NCBI GenBank assembly: GCA_012517325.1
Contig: JAAYVF010000011.1
Coordinates: forward strand, 1-53,027
Reading direction: 5' to 3'
Source: Myxococcales bacterium
Lineage (GTDB): Bacteria > Lernaellota > Lernaellaia > Lernaellales > Lernaellaceae
Length of the DNA stretch: 53,027 nt
Shown here: positions 35,384-45,321 of the stretch, piece by piece
How positions within the stretch are numbered: the stretch's first letter is position 1
How the letters are laid out: each line of letters opens with the position of its first letter
The notes under the pieces: generated by a model
Database searches by the model: none
What the model saw: the letters and a program-made list of their open reading frames with translations, nothing else
What the model was told of the DNA's origin: nothing
Made by a program: the position numbers and the translations under genes

Positions 35384-37102
35384 GTGCCCATCAACCGCAA
35401 GCGGTGGGTTTTCGCGGATGAAGATCCGCTGGCCGAACGCCGGTTGCGCGATGAACTGGGCATCGGCGCGGTCACCGCGCGAATCCTCGCCAGCCGCGGC
35501 CTGATCGAACCGGCGGTCGTCAAACGGTTTCTCCAACCGCGCCTGGCCGATCTGCCCCATCCCCATCAAATGGCCGGCGCCGCAGCCGCCGCGCGCCGCA
35601 TCGCCGACGCCTTGGAGCGCGGCGAAAAGATCGGCGTGCACGGCGACTACGACGCCGACGGCATCACCGCAACCGCCCTGCTCGCCGATTTTTTCAATCG
35701 CCTGGGCCATCCGATCGAACCGTACATTCCGCGGCGGTTGGATCAGGGCTACGGCTTCGGCCCCGATTCCGCGCGCGAACTGGCCGACCGCGGCGTCAAG
35801 CTGCTGATCACCGTCGACTGCGGCGCCAACGATCACGACGCGGTGCGGGCCGCCAACGAGCGGGGCCTCGCGGTGATCGTCAGCGACCACCACGAGATCG
35901 CCGGCCCCCTGCCCCCGGCGGCCGTGGTCATCAACCCCCACCGGCCGGACTGCGGTTTTCACGCGGAACACCTGTCGGGCGTGGGCATCGCGTTTTTTCT
36001 CGCGGCGGCGGTGCGCCTCGAATTGGCGGGCCGCGGCTGGGCGGCGGCGGACGACTACGATCTGAAGAGCGTGCTCGACCTGGTCGCGCTGGGCACGGTG
36101 GCGGACATCGTGCCGCTGGTCGGAGTCAACCGCATCCTGGTGTTCCACGGCCTGGAACTACTCAACCAGGACCGCCGGGCCGGGCTGACCGCCTTGCGCA
36201 AGGTGGCGGCGGTGCAGACGCCGGTGCGTTGCGGCGACATCGGCTACCGGCTGGCGCCGCGCATCAACGCCGCCGGCCGGCTGGGCGACGCGGCGGTGGG
36301 ACTGAACCTGCTGCTGACCGACGACGAGGCCGAAGCCGGGCGCCTGGCGCGGCTGCTGCACGAGGAAAACGCGCGCCGGCAGTCGATCGAAAGCGCCATT
36401 TTCCAGCAGGCGCAAAAAATGTTCGGCCAGATTGCCCGCGCCGAGCGCTTGCAATCGATCGTGCTGGCGCACCCCGATTGGCACCCGGGGGTGATCGGCA
36501 TCGTCGCCAGCCGGATGGTCGAAATGTTCAACCGGCCGACCATCCTGATCAGCGCCGTGGGCGACGTCGGCCGCGGCTCCGGCCGTTCCCTGCCGGGATT
36601 CAACCTGTATGAAGCCCTGCAGGCGTGCGAGGAACATTTGGAGGGTTACGGCGGGCACGAGCAGGCGGCCGGCGTGCAAATCAAGCTCGACCAGATTTTC
36701 GAATTCGCCAAGGCCTTCGATCAATACGCGCGGCGCACCCTGCAGGCCGAGGATCTCGTGCCCAAGCAGCGCGTCGACGCCTGGTGCGAAATCGACGAGG
36801 TCACCGAAACCCTGGTGCGCGAACTGGGTTCGCTGGCGCCGTTCGGCTTCGGCAACCCGGAGCCGGTGCTGGCGGCCCGCGACGTCCGCGTCCTCAACAA
36901 GCAACTGGTCGGCGGCGAACACCTGAAACTGCGGATTCCCTGGCGGAAGACGGCGCTGGCGGTGATCGCCTTCGGCCGCGCCGAACTGCTCGAACAGCTC
37001 GGCTCGCGCCTGGACCTCGCCTACTCGCCGGAATTCAATTATTACGGCGGCGTCGAACACATCCAACTGCGGGCGCGGGATATCGTCATCCCGGATCTAT
37101 AG
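35384..37102 (+). CDS. recJ: Single-stranded-DNA-specific exonuclease RecJ
   Basis: A 572-residue DHH-family 5'-3' exonuclease for recombination and mismatch repair. The DHH phosphoesterase core shows 'IGVHGDYDADGITATALL', 'TVDCGANDHDAV' and 'VIVSDHHEI' with the DHH triplet. DHHA1 motifs 'RINAAGRLGDA' and 'GRGSGRSLPGFNLYEAL' plus 'YGGHEQAAGV' follow, then an OB-fold C-terminus. The start is GTG with AGGAG about eleven bases upstream. It closes the co-oriented run. Confidence 0.95.
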   Translation: MPINRKRWVFADEDPLAERRLRDELGIGAVTARILASRGLIEPAVVKRFLQPRLADLPHPHQMAGAAAAARRIADALERGEKIGVHGDYDADGITATALLADFFNRLGHPIEPYIPRRLDQGYGFGPDSARELADRGVKLLITVDCGANDHDAVRAANERGLAVIVSDHHEIAGPLPPAAVVINPHRPDCGFHAEHLSGVGIAFFLAAAVRLELAGRGWAAADDYDLKSVLDLVALGTVADIVPLVGVNRILVFHGLELLNQDRRAGLTALRKVAAVQTPVRCGDIGYRLAPRINAAGRLGDAAVGLNLLLTDDEAEAGRLARLLHEENARRQSIESAIFQQAQKMFGQIARAERLQSIVLAHPDWHPGVIGIVASRMVEMFNRPTILISAVGDVGRGSGRSLPGFNLYEALQACEEHLEGYGGHEQAAGVQIKLDQIFEFAKAFDQYARRTLQAEDLVPKQRVDAWCEIDEVTETLVRELGSLAPFGFGNPEPVLAARDVRVLNKQLVGGEHLKLRIPWRKTALAVIAFGRAELLEQLGSRLDLAYSPEFNYYGGVEHIQLRARDIVIPDL

Positions 37103-37162
37103 CCGGCGGCAATCATTTTCCGCTACCGCGAGCGGATTGTTACGCCTCTTGAGCTTCTCACC

Positions 37163-38209
37163 TCACTTCACCGTCTTGAGTTCGAACTCTACCACCACCT
37201 GCGGCGTCGGGTTTTGGATGCCGGTTGCGCTGCCGAAGCCAGGCCCCTTGGTGAGCGGCGTGCAGCCCTGCGGTTTGGGCACGAAGTGGAACGGCGCGGC
37301 GGTGGTAGCCTCGACGCGGATCACGTCCGCCGCGCCGATGGGCTCGCTCACCTTGAAGTGGGTCCCCTGGGGCAATAGCTCCGCCGAGTAGGTGTACCCC
37401 GCCTTGAACAGCGCCGACTGCCGCGTGCCGGTCATATGGTTGGGGTAATACTGGCAGACGTTGCCCAGCCCCTTGGTCTCGGCCGTGACGCGCACGTAGG
37501 CGTCGGCGCTGGCGGAAACGTACACGTCGTACTCGTCGCCGAGCTTGAGCGCCGTCTGGCCCGGGATCACCGGCGTACCGTCGCTCTTGCGCACCTCGAC
37601 CTGGAGCGTCAAGCCGTTCGCCGTGGCGGGGATCGGCTTCGCCCCCGCCAGCATCCAGTCGTACTGATTCGCGGAGTTGTCGGCGTAGCCCACGGGCTGG
37701 AGGTAGACGACCTGCGGGCCCTCCTTGACATAGCCGACCTGACCGCTTTCGTCCTTGACTTTCAGCCAGCCGCCGACCTCCTTGGCCAGAACGAGCAGCT
37801 CCTTGCCCATCGCCAGCACGCCGTCGGCCTGCCGCACCTCGGCGTCGCCGAGGCCGAACAGCTTCATGAACCAGCTCACTGCCTTGGCGATCACGATCTT
37901 CCCGAAGGGAGTGGCCGCAGCGATCATGATCGGCAGGAACAGGCCCTTGGTCTTGGTCTGCTGGAGCGCGTCGGCCTGCACGTAGCCGGTCTTGCCGTCC
38001 GGCGTTTGCACACGCCAGTACGTTCCCGCTTGATGCGTGACCTCGACGATCGCGCCGGATGCGAGGCTGGCCACCGGGGCGTCGGTTGCGCCAGGCGCGG
38101 CGAGCACGGCCGTCGACTTCGTCGCCGTGAAGGGCGCGGCGAAGGCGAGGCTGGCAAATAAAAACACGGCGGCGACGGTAAACACGCTGACGAGGGTTTT
38201 CCGCTTCAT
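37163..38209 (-). CDS. Exported SH3b - DUF4384-like protein
   Basis: A 348-residue exported protein. The signal peptide (about 1-25) ends at A-F-A. Two SH3b-like segments ('TAVLAAPGATDAPVASLASGAIVEVTHQAGTYWRVQ', and a second around 125-165 ending 'GQVGYVKEG') are followed by a DUF4384-like beta domain (about 200-348: 'LKLGDEYDVYVSASADAYVRVTAE'). DUF4384 domains are often fused to or encoded beside caspase-like proteins, and here such a protein is encoded 1.7 kb upstream on the same strand, beyond the DGR. ATG 38209 is preferred to GTG 38212 because GGAG then has a six-base spacing. A partner or ligand-presenting role in the DGR system is inference. Confidence 0.7.
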   Translation of the reverse strand: MKRKTLVSVFTVAAVFLFASLAFAAPFTATKSTAVLAAPGATDAPVASLASGAIVEVTHQAGTYWRVQTPDGKTGYVQADALQQTKTKGLFLPIMIAAATPFGKIVIAKAVSWFMKLFGLGDAEVRQADGVLAMGKELLVLAKEVGGWLKVKDESGQVGYVKEGPQVVYLQPVGYADNSANQYDWMLAGAKPIPATANGLTLQVEVRKSDGTPVIPGQTALKLGDEYDVYVSASADAYVRVTAETKGLGNVCQYYPNHMTGTRQSALFKAGYTYSAELLPQGTHFKVSEPIGAADVIRVEATTAAPFHFVPKPQGCTPLTKGPGFGSATGIQNPTPQVVVEFELKTVK

Positions 38210-38263
38210 CACGATCTCCCCACTACAAAAAACACCATATCATCTTTATAAGTAAGCGACTCC

Positions 38264-38544
38264 GCGGGCGACGTTCGGCCGTTCGGCCTACCGGCCGCCC
38301 GGGAGTCCGGTCTCTTCGGCCTGGCCCGTCGACCAGCCCGGGAAAGGGCCAGGACTGCGGCGGTGCGCTTGGGCGATAATCCATCGCTCAACTCCGACCG
38401 GCCTCTCGGCGCGGATGCAGTCCCGGGAACATCGGAACCCCTTGTTGTTGTTCGTATTCGTCGGTTGATTCCTGTTCCGATTCGACGCGCGCACATTCCT
38501 GGGATTATTGTTCCAGCTACCACCCCGAAGCACGCGGTTCGATT
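38264..38544 (-). ncRNA. Predicted DGR template RNA (TR plus structured spacer)
   Basis: The template repeat and the following 150 nt are non-coding in any conserved frame and rich in stems: CCTGGCCC (38320-38327) pairs with GGGCCAGG (38346-38353), and CGGGCG (38265-38270) with CGCCCG (38296-38301). In studied DGRs the template RNA extends past TR into a structured spacer that the reverse transcriptase and Avd bind; here the spacer lies on the 3' side of TR. Ends are guesses. Confidence 0.55.
38418..38544 (-). repeat. DGR template repeat (TR)
   Basis: 127 nt homologous to VR at 40071-40196. In the coding sense it contains about 37 adenines, many as AAC/AAT codons at the positions that vary. 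Its first 28 nt overlap the 3' end of the reverse-transcriptase gene, whose stop TAG lies inside TR. In the VR frame it reads through to G-F-R-C-S-R-D, the standard ending of FGE-sulfatase domains. Confidence 0.95.
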
Positions 38545-39617
38545 GCGGCCCTCCCCCCTTTTACAAAAACGAACGACGGGAGCAACTCCTCCCGCAGCCG
38601 GTAGCTATCGGCATAGGATGCGTGCGCGAGCCAGGATGCCAAGGAAGCGCGCACGCGGTCGATGGTCACCCGCCCCTCGGTGTAGTCGTCTTGCAGCGCC
38701 CGCATCCTTTTTCCGAATCGTTTCACGTTCTCCCGCCGCACCCGCACCCGATCCGGCAGGTGCCGAAAGCCGAGGAACTCGATCCCCTCCCGCGCGGTGT
38801 AGATGCGGCTCTTGCCGTCGTGAAGGCGCAGCCGGTGCCCGCCGAGGTAGTCGATGATCGCGGCGCGCACCTGGTTCAGGCGCGCTTTGTCGTCGGCGAA
38901 CACGCAGAAGTCGTCGACGTACCGCAGGTAAGAACCGGCGCGCAGTTCCTCGGTCAGCCAATGGTCGAAGTCGTTCAGGTAGAGGTTGGCGAAAAACTGG
39001 CTGGTGAGGTTGCCCACCGGGATTCCCCGACGGCGTTTGTGCGGCGTGAAGAGGTCGTCGCCGGAGAAGAAAAATCGAGGGGCCGTCTCGTTGAAGTCCC
39101 GCGAGCCGACGATCTTCTCCAGCAGCCGCAGCGCGTCACGGTCGGCGACCTTGCGGCGCAGCTTACCCAGCAGGATCTCGTGATCCATGCTCTGGAAGTA
39201 TTTGCGGATGTCGCACTTCAGGACATACCGATGTTTGGCCAGGAAACCCCGAAAGCGAAACAGCGCCGCGTGCGTACCCTTACCCTTGCGGCAGGCGTAG
39301 GCGTCGTAAATGAACATGGGGTCGAACAGCGGCTCGATCACGTTCATCACGGCGTGGTGGACGACCCGATCCCGATAGGGTGCGGCGGAGATGAGCCGCT
39401 TCTTGGAGTCCTTGACGATAAAGTCCCGATACGGCCCGGGCTCGTAGTCGCCGGATCGCAGTTCGTCTTGGAGGCGAAAGAGGTTGCTTTCCAGCTCGAA
39501 GTTGAAGGCCAAGGCGCTCGGCTTGTAACGGCGGCCGGTCTGCGCCTTTTTCGCCGCCAGCAGCAGGTTCTGGAAGTCGGCGATTCGCGGAAACAGGTGC
39601 TTGAAGGTCTTAGCCAT
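38517..39617 (-). CDS. DGR reverse transcriptase
   Basis: A 366-residue reverse transcriptase. Motif 3 is 'VLKCDIRKYFQSMDH' with D136. Motif 4 is 'GIPVGNLTSQFFANLYLNDFDHW', where G-N-L-T-S-Q (202-207) is the DGR-specific variant of the intron-type QGxxxSP. The catalytic Y-V-D-D is at 233-236, followed by 'GIEFLGFRH' (motif 6-7). There is no maturase or endonuclease domain, as expected. ATG 39617 overlaps the avd stop by 8 bp, giving translational coupling; a longer upstream reading would lie within avd and is rejected. The enzyme copies the template RNA with adenine-specific errors and delivers the cDNA to VR. Confidence 0.95.
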   Translation of the reverse strand: MAKTFKHLFPRIADFQNLLLAAKKAQTGRRYKPSALAFNFELESNLFRLQDELRSGDYEPGPYRDFIVKDSKKRLISAAPYRDRVVHHAVMNVIEPLFDPMFIYDAYACRKGKGTHAALFRFRGFLAKHRYVLKCDIRKYFQSMDHEILLGKLRRKVADRDALRLLEKIVGSRDFNETAPRFFFSGDDLFTPHKRRRGIPVGNLTSQFFANLYLNDFDHWLTEELRAGSYLRYVDDFCVFADDKARLNQVRAAIIDYLGGHRLRLHDGKSRIYTAREGIEFLGFRHLPDRVRVRRENVKRFGKRMRALQDDYTEGRVTIDRVRASLASWLAHASYADSYRLREELLPSFVFVKGGRAAIEPRASGW

Positions 39618-39954
39618 CGCCACTCGCCTGCTTGCGCCAACCGCCGAGTTGTTGCCCGAGGTCGGTGAGAATCCCCATGACGTGCTCGTAGCCCTTGTCC
39701 GACAGGGCTCCGAGTTCCCGCGACAGCCGCAGCAGCATCCGCAGCCGCTCCAGTCGGATGTTCGCCTCGTCCAGTAGATCAACCTTCTTTTTCGTATAGG
39801 CGGCCTGCACCAGCAACTCCAGCACGGTCAGCACGTTGTCCGCGATCCGGTCGCCCAGCGTAAACTTGTGGTCGCGCGGAAACTTCGCCAACCGCACCAG
39901 CACCTCCTTGGCCAGATCGTACGCCTTCTGGATCGCCGGAAGATCTTTCTTCAT
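39610..39954 (-). CDS. avd: Avd-like DGR accessory protein
   Basis: A 114-residue, all-helical basic protein ('DLPAIQKAYDLAKEVLVRLAKFPRDHKFTLGDRI', 'LLDEANIRLERLRMLLRLSRELGALSDKGYEHV') matching the four-helix-bundle Avd proteins that bind DGR reverse transcriptases and template RNA. It is three bases downstream of the target-gene stop as read here and overlaps the reverse-transcriptase start. It is essential for mutagenic homing in characterised systems. Confidence 0.9.
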   Translation of the reverse strand: MKKDLPAIQKAYDLAKEVLVRLAKFPRDHKFTLGDRIADNVLTVLELLVQAAYTKKKVDLLDEANIRLERLRMLLRLSRELGALSDKGYEHVMGILTDLGQQLGGWRKQASGDG

Positions 39955-39957
39955 CGT

Positions 39958-41841
39958 CTATGACTCGCTTTTTCGTAGCGAACAGGGCTTCGCCCTGTAC
40001 CTACCAAAGAGGGCTGCCCTCTTTGGAATCTCCCCAGGGTAAAAGGGTAAAAGAGCCCAAGAGTAAAATTCAGTCCCGGGAACATCGGAACCCCAGGAGG
40101 TGGTCGTATTCGCCGGGCGATTCCTGAGCCGATACGACGCGCGCACATTCCTGGGATCAAAGTTCCAGCTACCACCCCGAAGCACGCGGAGCGAGTTATT
40201 TTTAGTGTTTACGGGATTGCGCTCCGGCATTTGCGAGTACCAGTTTTCATCGTACCAGTCCTGATTCCACTCCCACACGTTGCCCAGCATGTCGTACAGG
40301 CCATAGGCGTTCGGCTGCTTCTGGCCCACCGGGTGCGTCTTGTTGCCGGAGTTGCCGCCGTACCAGGCAACGTCATCGAGGTTCCCGTACCGCGCACCGG
40401 TCGTGCCGCCCCGCGCCGCGTACTCCCACTCCGCCTCCGTCGGCAGGCGCTTGCCGACCTTCGCGCAGTAGTTGCTGGCGTCGTTCCAGGAGACGTTTTC
40501 CACGGGGCAGTCGGCGCAGTTCTTGAAGGAGCTGGGGTTCGTGCCGGTCACCCGCTGGTACTCCGACTGCGTCACCTCGTATACGTCCATGTGGAAGGCA
40601 TCCACGTAAACATTCTTGGCTGGCTTTTCGTCGCTTTGACAATCCGAATCCCCCGTCGAGCAGCCCATCGTGAACCAGCCGCCGGGGATCCACGCCATGC
40701 CCTCCGGCGCATCGGCTTGGTTCAGCCATCCATTTACCTCGTCATACCAGGGGTTATCGCTTTTGTCGCCGTAGTCCGAAAGAAATTTTTGGTACAAGGC
40801 CTTCTTGGTGCTTTTGTTATACGAGGCGCTTTCCTTGTATTCCTTTACCTTCGAGTAGGCGCTCTGTGCTGCTTTCTGCTTTGACCTTTTCACCGACTCG
40901 GCGGCTTCCGCTTTTTGCTGCTCGGCCTGCGCGAGGGCGTCGTAGCCCGACAGATCGGGGACCGGTTCGGGCTTTACAGCCACGGGTGGCGGGGGAGCTG
41001 AACCGCCGTATTGAAACACCATCTGGCTCGTGCCGTCCCACCAGCCGAACGAGGGCGACAGCCCAGGCACCTTGGCCGGAATCTGCGCTTGAAGGTAAGT
41101 CCCCACCTCGGCGAAGGTGACATAGCCGTCCCGCTGGCCGCCCACGCCGTCGGCGCTGCCGTTGATGGCGTTGACGAAGTCGTAGGAGAACGCGCCGTCG
41201 GGCGTCGGCTGACCGGCGTCACCGGCGGTGAGCACGTTGATCGCGGGCTGCCCGAGGAAGTAGTTAACGTTGCCGGTCATCGTGCCGCTCTTAGTCAACG
41301 CCGTGCCGGAGAAGCAGGAGTCGAAGATGACCAGCACGTGCTTGGCGGGAATCTTGTTGTTGATCTGCCCGCGCAGGGCGTCCATCGAGATGTAGCTGGA
41401 CCAGTCGTCGGTGCCGCCAGTCATGCGGCCGTCGGCCGGAATAATGTAACCGAGCTGTCGGCCGCTACGCGCAGCCACCTCGGTCTGACCGTGACCCGAG
41501 TAGTAGAAGATGAACCGGCCGTTCTTGCCGACCTTCGCGGGGATGACTGTCTCGATCTGCCGCATGATGTTCGCGCGGCTCGCCTGCGTGTCAGTGAGTT
41601 TGATGACCTCGAAGCCCTGCGCCTGGAGCGCCTGCGCCACGCGGTTGGCGTCATTGCGCGGCTCGGTCAGTGACGACCAGCCGTTGCCGTACTGGCTGAT
41701 CCCCACGACCAGCGCGACCGACCGGTCGTACCATTGACCGCCGTTGGCCGTGGAAAAACCCGGGCCCTTGTTCTGCGCCAGTGCGGCGGAGATCAACACC
41801 ACGAGGGCGAGGCCCAGAACCGCGATTAGTCTCTTCTTCAT
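39958..41841 (-). CDS. DGR target: exported caspase-like - FGE/C-lectin protein, VR frameshifted
   Basis: A 627-residue protein as read. A signal peptide (about 1-22, ending A-L-A) leads to a caspase/metacaspase-like domain (about 38-280) with the catalytic pair His117 ('YYSGHGQ') and Cys176 ('IFDSCFSGTA'). A proline linker and an Ala/Lys/Glu-rich coiled segment (300-375) follow, then an FGE-sulfatase/C-type-lectin-like domain (380-590: 'GMAWIPGGWFTMGC', 'RLPTEAEWEYAARGG', 'DMLGNVWEW', 'RVLRGGSW'). VR covers residues 549-590. Relative to TR, VR lacks one base at codon 583; restoring it would end the protein at residue 590 with G-F-R-C-S-R-D and a stop at 40070-40072. The present 37-residue tail after VR is therefore probably spurious. 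ATG 41841 has GGAG seven bases upstream. An exported protease with a hypervariable ligand-binding domain is inferred. Confidence 0.9.
   Translation of the reverse strand: MKKRLIAVLGLALVVLISAALAQNKGPGFSTANGGQWYDRSVALVVGISQYGNGWSSLTEPRNDANRVAQALQAQGFEVIKLTDTQASRANIMRQIETVIPAKVGKNGRFIFYYSGHGQTEVAARSGRQLGYIIPADGRMTGGTDDWSSYISMDALRGQINNKIPAKHVLVIFDSCFSGTALTKSGTMTGNVNYFLGQPAINVLTAGDAGQPTPDGAFSYDFVNAINGSADGVGGQRDGYVTFAEVGTYLQAQIPAKVPGLSPSFGWWDGTSQMVFQYGGSAPPPPVAVKPEPVPDLSGYDALAQAEQQKAEAAESVKRSKQKAAQSAYSKVKEYKESASYNKSTKKALYQKFLSDYGDKSDNPWYDEVNGWLNQADAPEGMAWIPGGWFTMGCSTGDSDCQSDEKPAKNVYVDAFHMDVYEVTQSEYQRVTGTNPSSFKNCADCPVENVSWNDASNYCAKVGKRLPTEAEWEYAARGGTTGARYGNLDDVAWYGGNSGNKTHPVGQKQPNAYGLYDMLGNVWEWNQDWYDENWYSQMPERNPVNTKNNSLRVLRGGSWNFDPRNVRASYRLRNRPANTTTSWGSDVPGTEFYSWALLPFYPGEIPKRAALFGRYRAKPCSLRKSES
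39982..39998. other. Hairpin downstream of VR (distal)
   Basis: ACAGGGC-TTC-GCCCTGT, a 7-bp stem with a 3-nt loop, lies between the canonical target stop and avd. Confidence 0.6.
40004..40026. other. Cruciform-like palindrome downstream of VR
   Basis: CCAAAGAGGGC-T-GCCCTCTTTGG is a perfect 11-bp inverted repeat 44 bp past the VR end in the target-gene direction. DGRs characterised in phage need a hairpin or cruciform just after VR for efficient target recognition, and this is well placed for that role. Confidence 0.65.
40071..40196 (-). repeat. DGR variable repeat (VR)
   Basis: 126 nt aligned to TR (38418-38544) with 17 substitutions and one 1-nt deletion. All 18 changes fall on coding-sense TR adenines. 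Altered codons are 549 (third base only), 551, 561, 562, 570, 572, 575, 577, 580, 581, 582 and 583. The G/C-rich end GGGGTTCCGATGTTCCCGGG, identical in both copies, is the likely homing-initiation (IMH) site. Confidence 0.96.
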
Positions 41842-41971
41842 CGTTACACTCCACGAGGTGGCGGTCAAAAGCTGGGGTTACCTGGTTGCTATTAGGTCAG
41901 AATGATACACCTCAAGCGGGGAAAATCCATCCGTAAGCGTACTCGACGATACCGACCGGTCGGCGGGGGTT

Positions 41972-43006
<1,035 letters not shown>

Positions 43007-43134: not shown

Positions 43135-45321
43135 ATGAAAAAGTTCGGCGCCCTCGGACTGATCCTCTGGCTGTCGCTCGGCTTGCTGTCCGCCTGCTCG
43201 ACCGGCGACGATGACGACAACGATTCCCGCCTCGATGACGATACCGTCGACGACGACGATGACAATGACGACAACGACGATAACGACGATAACGACGACA
43301 ACGACGACAACGACGATAACGACGATAACGACGACAACGATGACAATGACGACAACGATGACAACGACACCACTCCTTACTGGGCCGACGGCGAGGATCT
43401 GGGCGCCGTGTCGCTGGACGAATACCGGCCGCTCGGCGACCAGGGCCTGAACGAATGGGAATGGGACGCCGGCCTGACGGCCAAGGACGCGCTGCTCGCA
43501 AGCGGCAGCGTCAAATGGGTCGCCACGCTGGATGTCGAGAACAACCAATATTACCTGTGGCACCACGACGGCGAACTCGTCTTTACGCGGACGTTCGGCG
43601 CGGACGGCTTGGAATTCGACCTCGTCAGCCAGACCGGCCCCGACCCGTTCCCCAACCAGGATCCGTTGTTCGCCGACGACTACGACGCCGAGCTGGCGCT
43701 GTTCGAAAATCCCGACAACATCCAGCTGCCCGAACACGGCTACGACACCGACGACCCGCGCGTCGGCTGGATTCTCGACGACCAGGCCTGCTACCCGGAC
43801 GCGCTGCGGCGCATCGCCCAGATTTTCGATTCGCCCGAAGGACCGGACCTCGCTTTTGACGTGCATGCCTCGCACGGCAACGGCACCGGTTCGCACGGCA
43901 ACCTGGGGCTGATGCAAAGCCGCTCGCCGCTGCTGTTTTCGGGCGCCGGCATCCTCGCCGGCGAGGTGATCGAGGCGGCGGCGCGGCAGGCGGATATCGC
44001 CCCGACGGCGATGGCGCTGTTGGGGGCGGACGTGGTGGAGGGCATCGACGAACGCGGCCACCGCGTCACCAACAACTTCCTGCCCTGGCAGGACGGCCAC
44101 GCGCTGGCGGAAGTGCTGACCGATCCCAGCGTGCAGGGCCTGGCCGATCAGGTGGTCCTCTTCGTTTTCGACGGCCTGGCGGCGAACGAGCTGTTTTACC
44201 ATTACGATCATCAGGGCGGCGGCGGTTGGGATCTGCCGAATTTCTTTTCGCTGATCGACAACGGCGTTTATTACCGCGGCGGGGCGATCGTCGGCTGGCC
44301 GAGTTTCTCGCTGCCGGGCCACACCTCGGTCAGCACCGGCGTCTATCAGGGCCACCACCAACTGCTGAGCAACGACAACTATTTGCGCGTCAGCGGCGAG
44401 ATGTTCAGCTACGACTGGTTCGTCGACCACGTGCAGGAGTTGCTGCAAGATCCGTCGATCGGCCTCGCCTACTACCTGAAATTCTACGGCGACGAGCGCG
44501 GCATCGAAAACATCTACCAGGCGGCGCATCGCAATTTCGGCGACTGGGACCTCGAGCATCCGGGCACCTGGGGCAAGGCCTACACCGCGAGCGTCAACGA
44601 CCTGTCCTTCTACGCGGCCGACTACAGCTTTTATTCGCTCTTGGAACTGATCGCCGGGATCCTGCCCAACGGCGACAAGTTCGATCCGCAAGTCTACTCG
44701 CTCGCCGACCTGAGCGTGCCTATCCAGGTGGACCTGATGTTCCTCGACCCGACGCACCAGGCGCCCAAAACGGCGATCATGTCCTTCTACACCACCGACC
44801 ACCAGGGCGAAGCCAACGGCCCGCACAGCGAGGGCTTGCGCACCGAACTGGTCAACATCGACCGTTATCTCGGCTTGATTTTCGACGCCTACGAAAAAGC
44901 GGGGATTCTCGACCGGACGGCCTTCATCCTCACCAGCGATCACGGCATGGAATTGTTGCGCCCCGGGGTGTTCGTCGACTGGCGGCCGGGATTGCAGAGT
45001 TCCGGCGTCAAATATTTCGCGCTCGGCGGCCAGCAACTGCTGTTCCTCGAGGTCATGCGCGTCGTTCCCGATCCAGCCGCGGTGCCGGCCGGCTCGCCGG
45101 TGGAGATCACCGTGACGGTGACCAACGACGACGACGATCTGCCGGTGGTCGGCGCGGCGCTGAGCCTGACGGGCGGCGACTGTGCCCCCTGCACGGCCAC
45201 GACCGACGACGCCGGCGAGGCGGTTTTCACGGTCACGCCCGCGGCGGGCGAAAATCTGCAATTGCAGGCGACGCACGGCGATTTCACGCCGGCGACGGCG
45301 ACCGTTGCGGTTACCGATTAG
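43135..45321 (+). CDS. Alkaline-phosphatase-superfamily lipoprotein, apparently circularly permuted
   Basis: A 728-residue lipoprotein with lipobox L-S-A-C (Cys21) and a long (DDN)n linker (25-78). A segment at about 235-315 ('SHGNGTGSHGNLGLMQSRSPLLFSGAGI', 'QADIAPTAMALLG') looks like the C-terminal part of alkaline-phosphatase-superfamily phosphodiesterases. It precedes the usual N-terminal part: 'VVLFVFDGLAANE' (metal Asp), the nucleophile Thr in 'LPGHTSVSTGVYQGHH' and 'FILTSDHGME' (metal D-H). An Ig-like Big_1-type domain ends the protein ('VPAGSPVEITVTVTNDDDDLPVVGAALSL'). The order suggests circular permutation or a partial duplication. It is likely a surface or periplasmic phosphodiesterase or phosphatase; substrate unknown. 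Confidence 0.75.
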   Translation: MKKFGALGLILWLSLGLLSACSTGDDDDNDSRLDDDTVDDDDDNDDNDDNDDNDDNDDNDDNDDNDDNDDNDDNDDNDTTPYWADGEDLGAVSLDEYRPLGDQGLNEWEWDAGLTAKDALLASGSVKWVATLDVENNQYYLWHHDGELVFTRTFGADGLEFDLVSQTGPDPFPNQDPLFADDYDAELALFENPDNIQLPEHGYDTDDPRVGWILDDQACYPDALRRIAQIFDSPEGPDLAFDVHASHGNGTGSHGNLGLMQSRSPLLFSGAGILAGEVIEAAARQADIAPTAMALLGADVVEGIDERGHRVTNNFLPWQDGHALAEVLTDPSVQGLADQVVLFVFDGLAANELFYHYDHQGGGGWDLPNFFSLIDNGVYYRGGAIVGWPSFSLPGHTSVSTGVYQGHHQLLSNDNYLRVSGEMFSYDWFVDHVQELLQDPSIGLAYYLKFYGDERGIENIYQAAHRNFGDWDLEHPGTWGKAYTASVNDLSFYAADYSFYSLLELIAGILPNGDKFDPQVYSLADLSVPIQVDLMFLDPTHQAPKTAIMSFYTTDHQGEANGPHSEGLRTELVNIDRYLGLIFDAYEKAGILDRTAFILTSDHGMELLRPGVFVDWRPGLQSSGVKYFALGGQQLLFLEVMRVVPDPAAVPAGSPVEITVTVTNDDDDLPVVGAALSLTGGDCAPCTATTDDAGEAVFTVTPAAGENLQLQATHGDFTPATATVAVTD
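43207..43371. repeat. Asp/Asn-encoding tandem repeat (9-nt period)
   Basis: GACGACAAC/GACGATAAC units repeated more than a dozen times encode the D-D-N linker after the lipidated Cys. Synonymous third-base changes (GAC/GAT) break perfect repetition, which would damp slippage. Confidence 0.8.

Follow-up and report, generated by a model that had tools for sequence, protein, structure and literature searches.

Can a DGR rewrite the recognition end of a protease that works outside the cytoplasm? The locus that raises this question lies on a 53,027-nt stretch of DNA from a Myxococcales bacterium (JAAYVF010000011.1, positions 1 to 53,027; the whole stretch is hereafter called the window). An earlier note on this DNA had described an open reading frame in it as a caspase-like protease that carries a signal peptide and ends in an FGE domain diversified by a DGR. 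The minus strand of this chromosomal region was found to hold, between 37163 and 41841, a complete DGR in the order target, Avd, reverse transcriptase (RT) and template repeat, followed by a gene for an exported SH3/DUF4384 protein. The features of the locus are as follows.

41776..41841, minus strand: predicted Sec-type signal peptide, MKKRLIAVLGLALVVLISAALA before Q, recognized by its n-region, h-region and AxA pattern
41491..41493, minus strand: codon of catalytic His117 (SGHGQ), an invariant column that aligns with SGHG of GSU0716 and of metacaspase MCA2
41314..41322, minus strand: codons of Asp174, Ser175 and Cys176 (DSCFSG), with D174 and C176 invariant, aligning with DSCHSG of GSU0716
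40068..40194, minus strand: variable repeat (VR), from the TR/VR alignment, carrying 16 substitutions at adenine positions and lacking 1 nt
40004..40026, minus strand: 10-bp perfect inverted repeat with a 3-nt loop downstream of the VR, candidate DGR target-site hairpin
39982..39998, minus strand: second inverted repeat, ACAGGGC-GAA-GCCCTGT, whose GCGAAGC core is shared with the hairpin of a relative (cassette C46 of genome G002)
39958..41841, minus strand: DGR target, from Pfam, alignment to relatives and an AlphaFold model
39610..39954, minus strand: Avd (accessory variability determinant), NF033474 above cut-off (E=2e-28), PF22296 and phrog_3206
38517..39617, minus strand: DGR reverse transcriptase of 366 aa, PF00078 (E=2e-24) and phrog_1423 (E=1e-122)
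38415..38542, minus strand: template repeat (TR), from the TR/VR alignment, in frame and encoding ...GSWNNNPRNVRASNRNRNQPTNTNNNKGFRCSRD
37163..38209, minus strand: exported SH3_3 and DUF4384-like protein downstream of the TR, candidate partner, PF08239 above cut-off

Evidence for diversification comes from the comparison of the two repeats. Over 128 aligned columns they differ by 17 substitutions, 16 of which fall at TR adenines (hypergeometric p=1.1e-9), a pattern that bears out the DGR-diversified FGE domain of the earlier note. The remaining difference, C against A, lies within 3 bases of the alignment's end, and the single gap, one base missing in the VR, likewise falls on a TR adenine. 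AAY codons predominate in the TR. Its 19 codons with A at position 1 or 2 allow about 10^19 protein variants, and just one codon is able to become a stop. A search of the bacterium's own genome found no remote VRs or further TR copies. The RT carries the motifs YVDD and VGNLTSQ, its start codon overlaps the end of Avd, and it is the sole RVT_1 match genome-wide. The 10-bp hairpin after the VR was matched in 0 of 500 shuffles and has a comparable 11-bp counterpart in C46; in the DGR of Bordetella phage BPP-1, the post-VR hairpin is required (PMC3240598). Judged by these sequence features, namely a DGR-type RT, Avd, adenine-confined TR/VR changes and an inverted repeat after the VR, the locus is a DGR.

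The cassette is flanked by secD, secF and recJ on one side and by an mtnA-like gene (IF-2B family), a phosphodiesterase lipoprotein gene and ispH-UbiA on the other; queA is also among the scanned neighbours of the target. The neighbours being housekeeping genes, a prophage origin is unlikely, and no phage genes were visible among the neighbour genes scanned. The same scan, which covered part of the ORFs of the window, found no MoxR, vWA, VMAP, STAND NTPase or EAD. No sigma-70-type promoter was matched in 37000-42100. The SH3_3/DUF4384-like protein also bears a signal peptide pattern, and its PF14326 match (E=1e-5, 25.9 bits) is slightly under the cut-off of 27. On the plus strand, 43135-45321 encodes a putative lipoprotein in which a lipobox-like cysteine precedes a long (DDN)n repeat of Asp and Asn; the protein also has a type I phosphodiesterase domain.

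The target ORF starts at TTG 41868 or ATG 41841 and runs to 39958. The TTG start was dropped in favor of ATG 41841 because GGAG is present 7 nt upstream of the latter and the signal peptide starts there. The protein consists of the signal peptide (residues 1-22), a caspase domain (about 40-257), a helical linker (298-376), an FGE/CLec domain (380-579) and an out-of-frame tail (580-627). Pfam matched the caspase family (PF00656, E=4e-16, residues 40-189) and the FGE-sulfatase family (PF03781, E=7e-51, residues 380-578). An AlphaFold model built on a 4-sequence alignment left the FGE domain unfolded (pLDDT 54.6), whereas a 33-sequence alignment folded it: mean pLDDT was 83, confidence in the FGE domain held up to about residue 583, and scores fell below 50 across residues 584-627. 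The ORF, the Pfam matches and the AlphaFold/Foldseek results thus agree on the fusion of caspase to FGE that had been proposed earlier.

Is the target exported? In its first 22 residues, a hydropathy and site check found an n-region charge of +3, an h-region hydropathy of 3.4 and an AxA-type cut site, ALA, before Q. Hydropathy indicated no other TM segment, and a surface anchor was not found in the form of either a lipobox or a second TM. Four divergent homologues have the same signal-peptide layout although sequence identity in the hydrophobic core is low, so the pattern recurs in five proteins including that of the window. Export of the target is therefore supported by the conservation of a predicted signal peptide in the family. 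The signal peptide of the earlier note is borne out by this pattern and by an exported caspase-FGE protein predicted in an unrelated lineage. Some metacaspases also have an N-terminal helix, possibly a signal peptide (PMC3501461). The note had further set the protein apart from cytosolic DGR caspases; this distinction holds against published cases (PMC7517822, PMC10907252), but exported DGR targets as such were already known (PMC8144416, PMC10907252).

At the level of fold and motif, the caspase is real. Foldseek matched this part of the model to GSU0716, MALT1 and T. brucei metacaspase 2, and PADLOC returned a caspase model match for the target. His117 and Cys176 are invariant across an alignment of five family proteins, and by motif and conservation the His-Cys catalytic dyad is present. 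In other words, the intact clan-CD protease of the earlier note is supported by PF00656, Foldseek, five-protein invariance and the GSU0716 alignment. The invariant Asp174 before the cysteine, a putative acidic S1 residue, suggests metacaspase-like cleavage after Arg or Lys. Relatives contain an EF-hand-like loop (DANGDGYVTFNE, DADGDGFVSFHE) with weak Pfam EF-hand matches, which hints at Ca2+ dependence; the loop in the window has a three-residue insertion. Two other exported caspase homologues, L119 (G004:C7) and L113 (G110:C7), have an altered catalytic Cys region (DAQF and DGDL, respectively) and are likely pseudo-caspases of the same exported subfamily.

The FGE part of the model matched human FGE and TvpA in Foldseek. 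The active-site region of S. coelicolor FGE, LCHDSYC, aligns with variable, Cys-less residues of the G002 target, and the window has NFDPRN there, with no cysteine pair. An active sulfatase-modifying enzyme was rejected on the missing catalytic cysteines, and their absence argues for a binding rather than an enzymatic role. The earlier description of this part as a specificity domain is right in that FGE is the DGR target; specificity would be one possible role, and the domain might instead control activity, position the enzyme or select its substrates.

The window copy differs from its relatives at the C-terminus. The 1-nt deletion in the VR coincides with a TR adenine. Beyond residue 579 the frame is thereby shifted, and the protein reads TTSWGSDVPGTEF... 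and reaches a stop 48 residues on (residues 580-627); in the unshifted frame, TGA follows right after GFRCSRD. Read in frame, the TR leads to GFRCSRD, with which FGE domains usually end, and both intact G002 relatives end in GFRCSRD-stop. Pfam coverage of the FGE profile extends to 243/255 in the window compared to 254/255 in the relatives. Because of the deletion, the last core strand of FGE (GFRCSRD) is lost and the tail is not FGE sequence. Thus the ORF and domains of the earlier note are real, but it had missed the frameshift. The sequence suggests that this allele is probably off, with a non-functional recognition domain, or else contains an assembly error. The in-frame TR could restore the frame of the VR. 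A literature search on frameshift deletions in DGRs found nothing on point.

A search for homologues of the same architecture, which the earlier note had called for, yielded, among others, two intact cassettes and, elsewhere, an exported caspase-FGE protein beside a decayed DGR. Genome G002, of the same family but another genus, has two intact DGR cassettes whose targets combine a signal peptide, a caspase with the His/Cys dyad and FGE. All TR-VR changes are at adenines in both, 23/23 in C46 (p=2e-16) and 22/22 in C7 (p=1e-14), with no gaps, and the window RT is 72% identical to the RTs of these two cassettes with perfect adenine bias. A third G002 locus (C41) encodes the same signal peptide-caspase-FGE type without a DGR, followed directly by an SH3/DUF4384 gene. 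This arrangement suggests that caspase-FGE and SH3/DUF4384 form a two-gene unit that was split by the DGR in the lineage of the window. The SH3/DUF4384 partner is absent beside both G002 DGR cassettes and hence is not universal. In the unrelated lineage of G241, an exported caspase-FGE protein is followed by Avd and a frameshift-broken DGR RT (L105 3115-3995) and then by an exported caspase-DUF4384 protein; no TR was found at this locus, which by its sequence is a decayed DGR. Three G002 FGE paralogues (L183 1243-2670, L184 2136-2258 and L056 2366-3952) have TR-like ends with an excess of adenine-site differences and many other changes. Their ends are possibly old or remote variable repeats, one of them in a caspase-less protein.

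How widespread is this arrangement? DGR-type RT matches occurred in 24/386 sampled genomes. A caspase adjoins the RT at just 4 of about 27 DGR-RT loci inspected (the window, C46, C7 and G241), a survey in which some neighbourhoods end at contig ends. G001, of the same family as the window, gave no RT match and no caspase match, and in G386, from the family of G241, no caspase lies near the DGR RTs. A contig search for relatives of the target returned mainly FGE-level matches. Exported caspases with and without FGE, many lacking a DGR, occur in several unrelated genomes. Since many exported caspase-FGE proteins and FGE-less exported caspases have no DGR, the DGR is an add-on.

How might such a protein act? 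The favored model, for which belief and doubt are about evenly balanced, is that a chromosomal DGR diversifies the C-terminal FGE/CLec domain of an exported caspase-type (orthocaspase) cysteine protease, and that the product is a ligand-activated sensor-protease of the periplasm or surface. Sec would export the target to the periplasm or outside, where the diversified FGE domain would bind a protein or glycan ligand presented on the surface of a phage, predator, competitor or neighbour. Binding would cluster or unlock the caspase, possibly with Ca2+, and the active caspase would cut envelope proteins after basic residues. This could harm the cell itself or a neighbour, or release a signal, and the exported SH3/DUF4384 partner may take part. 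Barring an assembly error, the window copy would probably stay off until retrohoming next rewrites it from the in-frame TR. This model is favored because of the adenine bias between TR and VR, the intact relatives, the presence of Avd and RT, the hairpin, the fold matches, the loss of FGE cysteines and the independent G241 lineage. Against it, the allele in the window carries a frameshift, catalytic cysteines can lose activity in an oxidising compartment, this target type is found at few of the inspected DGR-RT loci and the partner is missing at the G002 cassettes. Furthermore, DGR-less exported caspases and caspase-FGE proteins are numerous, and ligand, substrate and location are inferred.

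An alternative is that the exported protein is an adhesin or receptor whose adhesion is tuned by the DGR, the caspase merely processing the protein itself for maturation or shedding, with no killing. Most cellular DGR targets published so far carry a signal peptide or TM and bind ligands outside the cell (PMC8144416). The structure of the FGE relative TvpA, a DGR variable protein, has been solved, and G002 holds other exported caspase-less FGE proteins with TR-like ends. However, all DGR-linked copies retain a caspase with the His/Cys dyad, and the target lacks a lipobox and a second TM, which leaves this alternative doubtful though worth considering. It is improbable that the N-terminal helix is non-functional for export and that the protein is an abortive-infection sensor in the cytosol like published DGR caspases. 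Caspase-bearing DGR targets of cyanobacteria are mostly predicted to be cytosolic (PMC7517822) and the PADLOC match fits such a role, but the AxA pattern recurs in five divergent family members and an unrelated lineage, the scanned neighbours are housekeeping genes without conflict-system partners, and the candidate partner gene is exported too.

The frameshift allows two further explanations. If it is real and fixed, the target may be turning into a pseudogene in a species where the DGR is no longer useful. The loss of the last FGE strand, the DGR decay in G241 and the lack of RT and caspase matches in G001 are in line with this. It is nevertheless improbable, as the caspase ORF remains intact along with RT, Avd, TR and hairpin, and the deletion lies inside the VR at a TR adenine, where rewriting occurs, among changes that are otherwise adenine-only plus one boundary base. 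It is quite plausible, if somewhat short of an even chance, that the frameshift alone is an assembly artefact and that the true VR is in frame and ends in GFRCSRD, which would be compatible with the exported sensor-protease. The relatives are in frame, and a VR that varies among cells would be hard to assemble; on the other hand, the deletion is at a mutable adenine and not in a long homopolymer. A bolder extension of the sensor-protease model, which we regard as unlikely but not far-fetched, is an envelope-facing device for immunity or rivalry. The DGR-rewritten exported caspase would sense invaders or neighbours outside the cytoplasm and trigger proteolysis, and frame slips during retrohoming would act as an on/off switch, with the in-frame TR reactivating silenced alleles. 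The question that arises is whether DGR retrohoming makes reversible frameshift-off alleles. For DGR-driven immunity or rivalry at the envelope, the family offers a compact test case: a single protein type occurs in three cassettes across two genera, and two of these cassettes are entirely in frame.

There are separate precedents for exported caspases, for caspase-FGE fusions, for DGR targets that bear a caspase and for DGR targets that are exported. No published report of a conserved exported caspase as a DGR target was found in a search that covered the main texts of open-access journal papers. The DGR of Bordetella phage BPP-1 shares RT, Avd, TR, VR and the post-VR hairpin with the window (PMC3240598), but its target is the phage tail protein Mtd, whereas the diversified domain here belongs to an exported caspase fusion encoded on the chromosome. 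TvpA of Treponema denticola (PDB 2y3c; E=1.5e-39 to the G002 target) is likewise a DGR variable protein with a CLec domain of the FGE subtype, but it has a single domain and no protease. Metacaspase-FGE-sulfatase proteins have the same two-domain fusion (PMC3501461); no DGR was described for them, whereas the FGE end in the window is a VR with adenine-specific change. In Thiohalocapsa PB-PSB1, FGE/CLec targets of DGRs are tied to conflict-system effectors (PMC10907252). There, a signal peptide is present in the DGR 5 target and a caspase-like CHAT domain in the DGR 2 target, but the caspase-like target is cytoplasmic and the exported one is not described as a caspase; in contrast, the scanned neighbours in the window include no MoxR, vWA, STAND or EAD partner. 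The orthocaspase-CLec proteins of cyanobacteria also join an N-terminal orthocaspase-like peptidase to a C-terminal CLec domain diversified by a DGR, but most cyanobacterial DGR variable proteins are predicted to be cytosolic, whereas the family of the window has a conserved N-terminal signal peptide (PMC7517822). DGR caspases have so far been read mostly as cytosolic proteins for signalling or self-destruction. In a conserved exported version, the variable sensor as well as the protease would sit outside the cytoplasm, and another trigger and another substrate would be needed.
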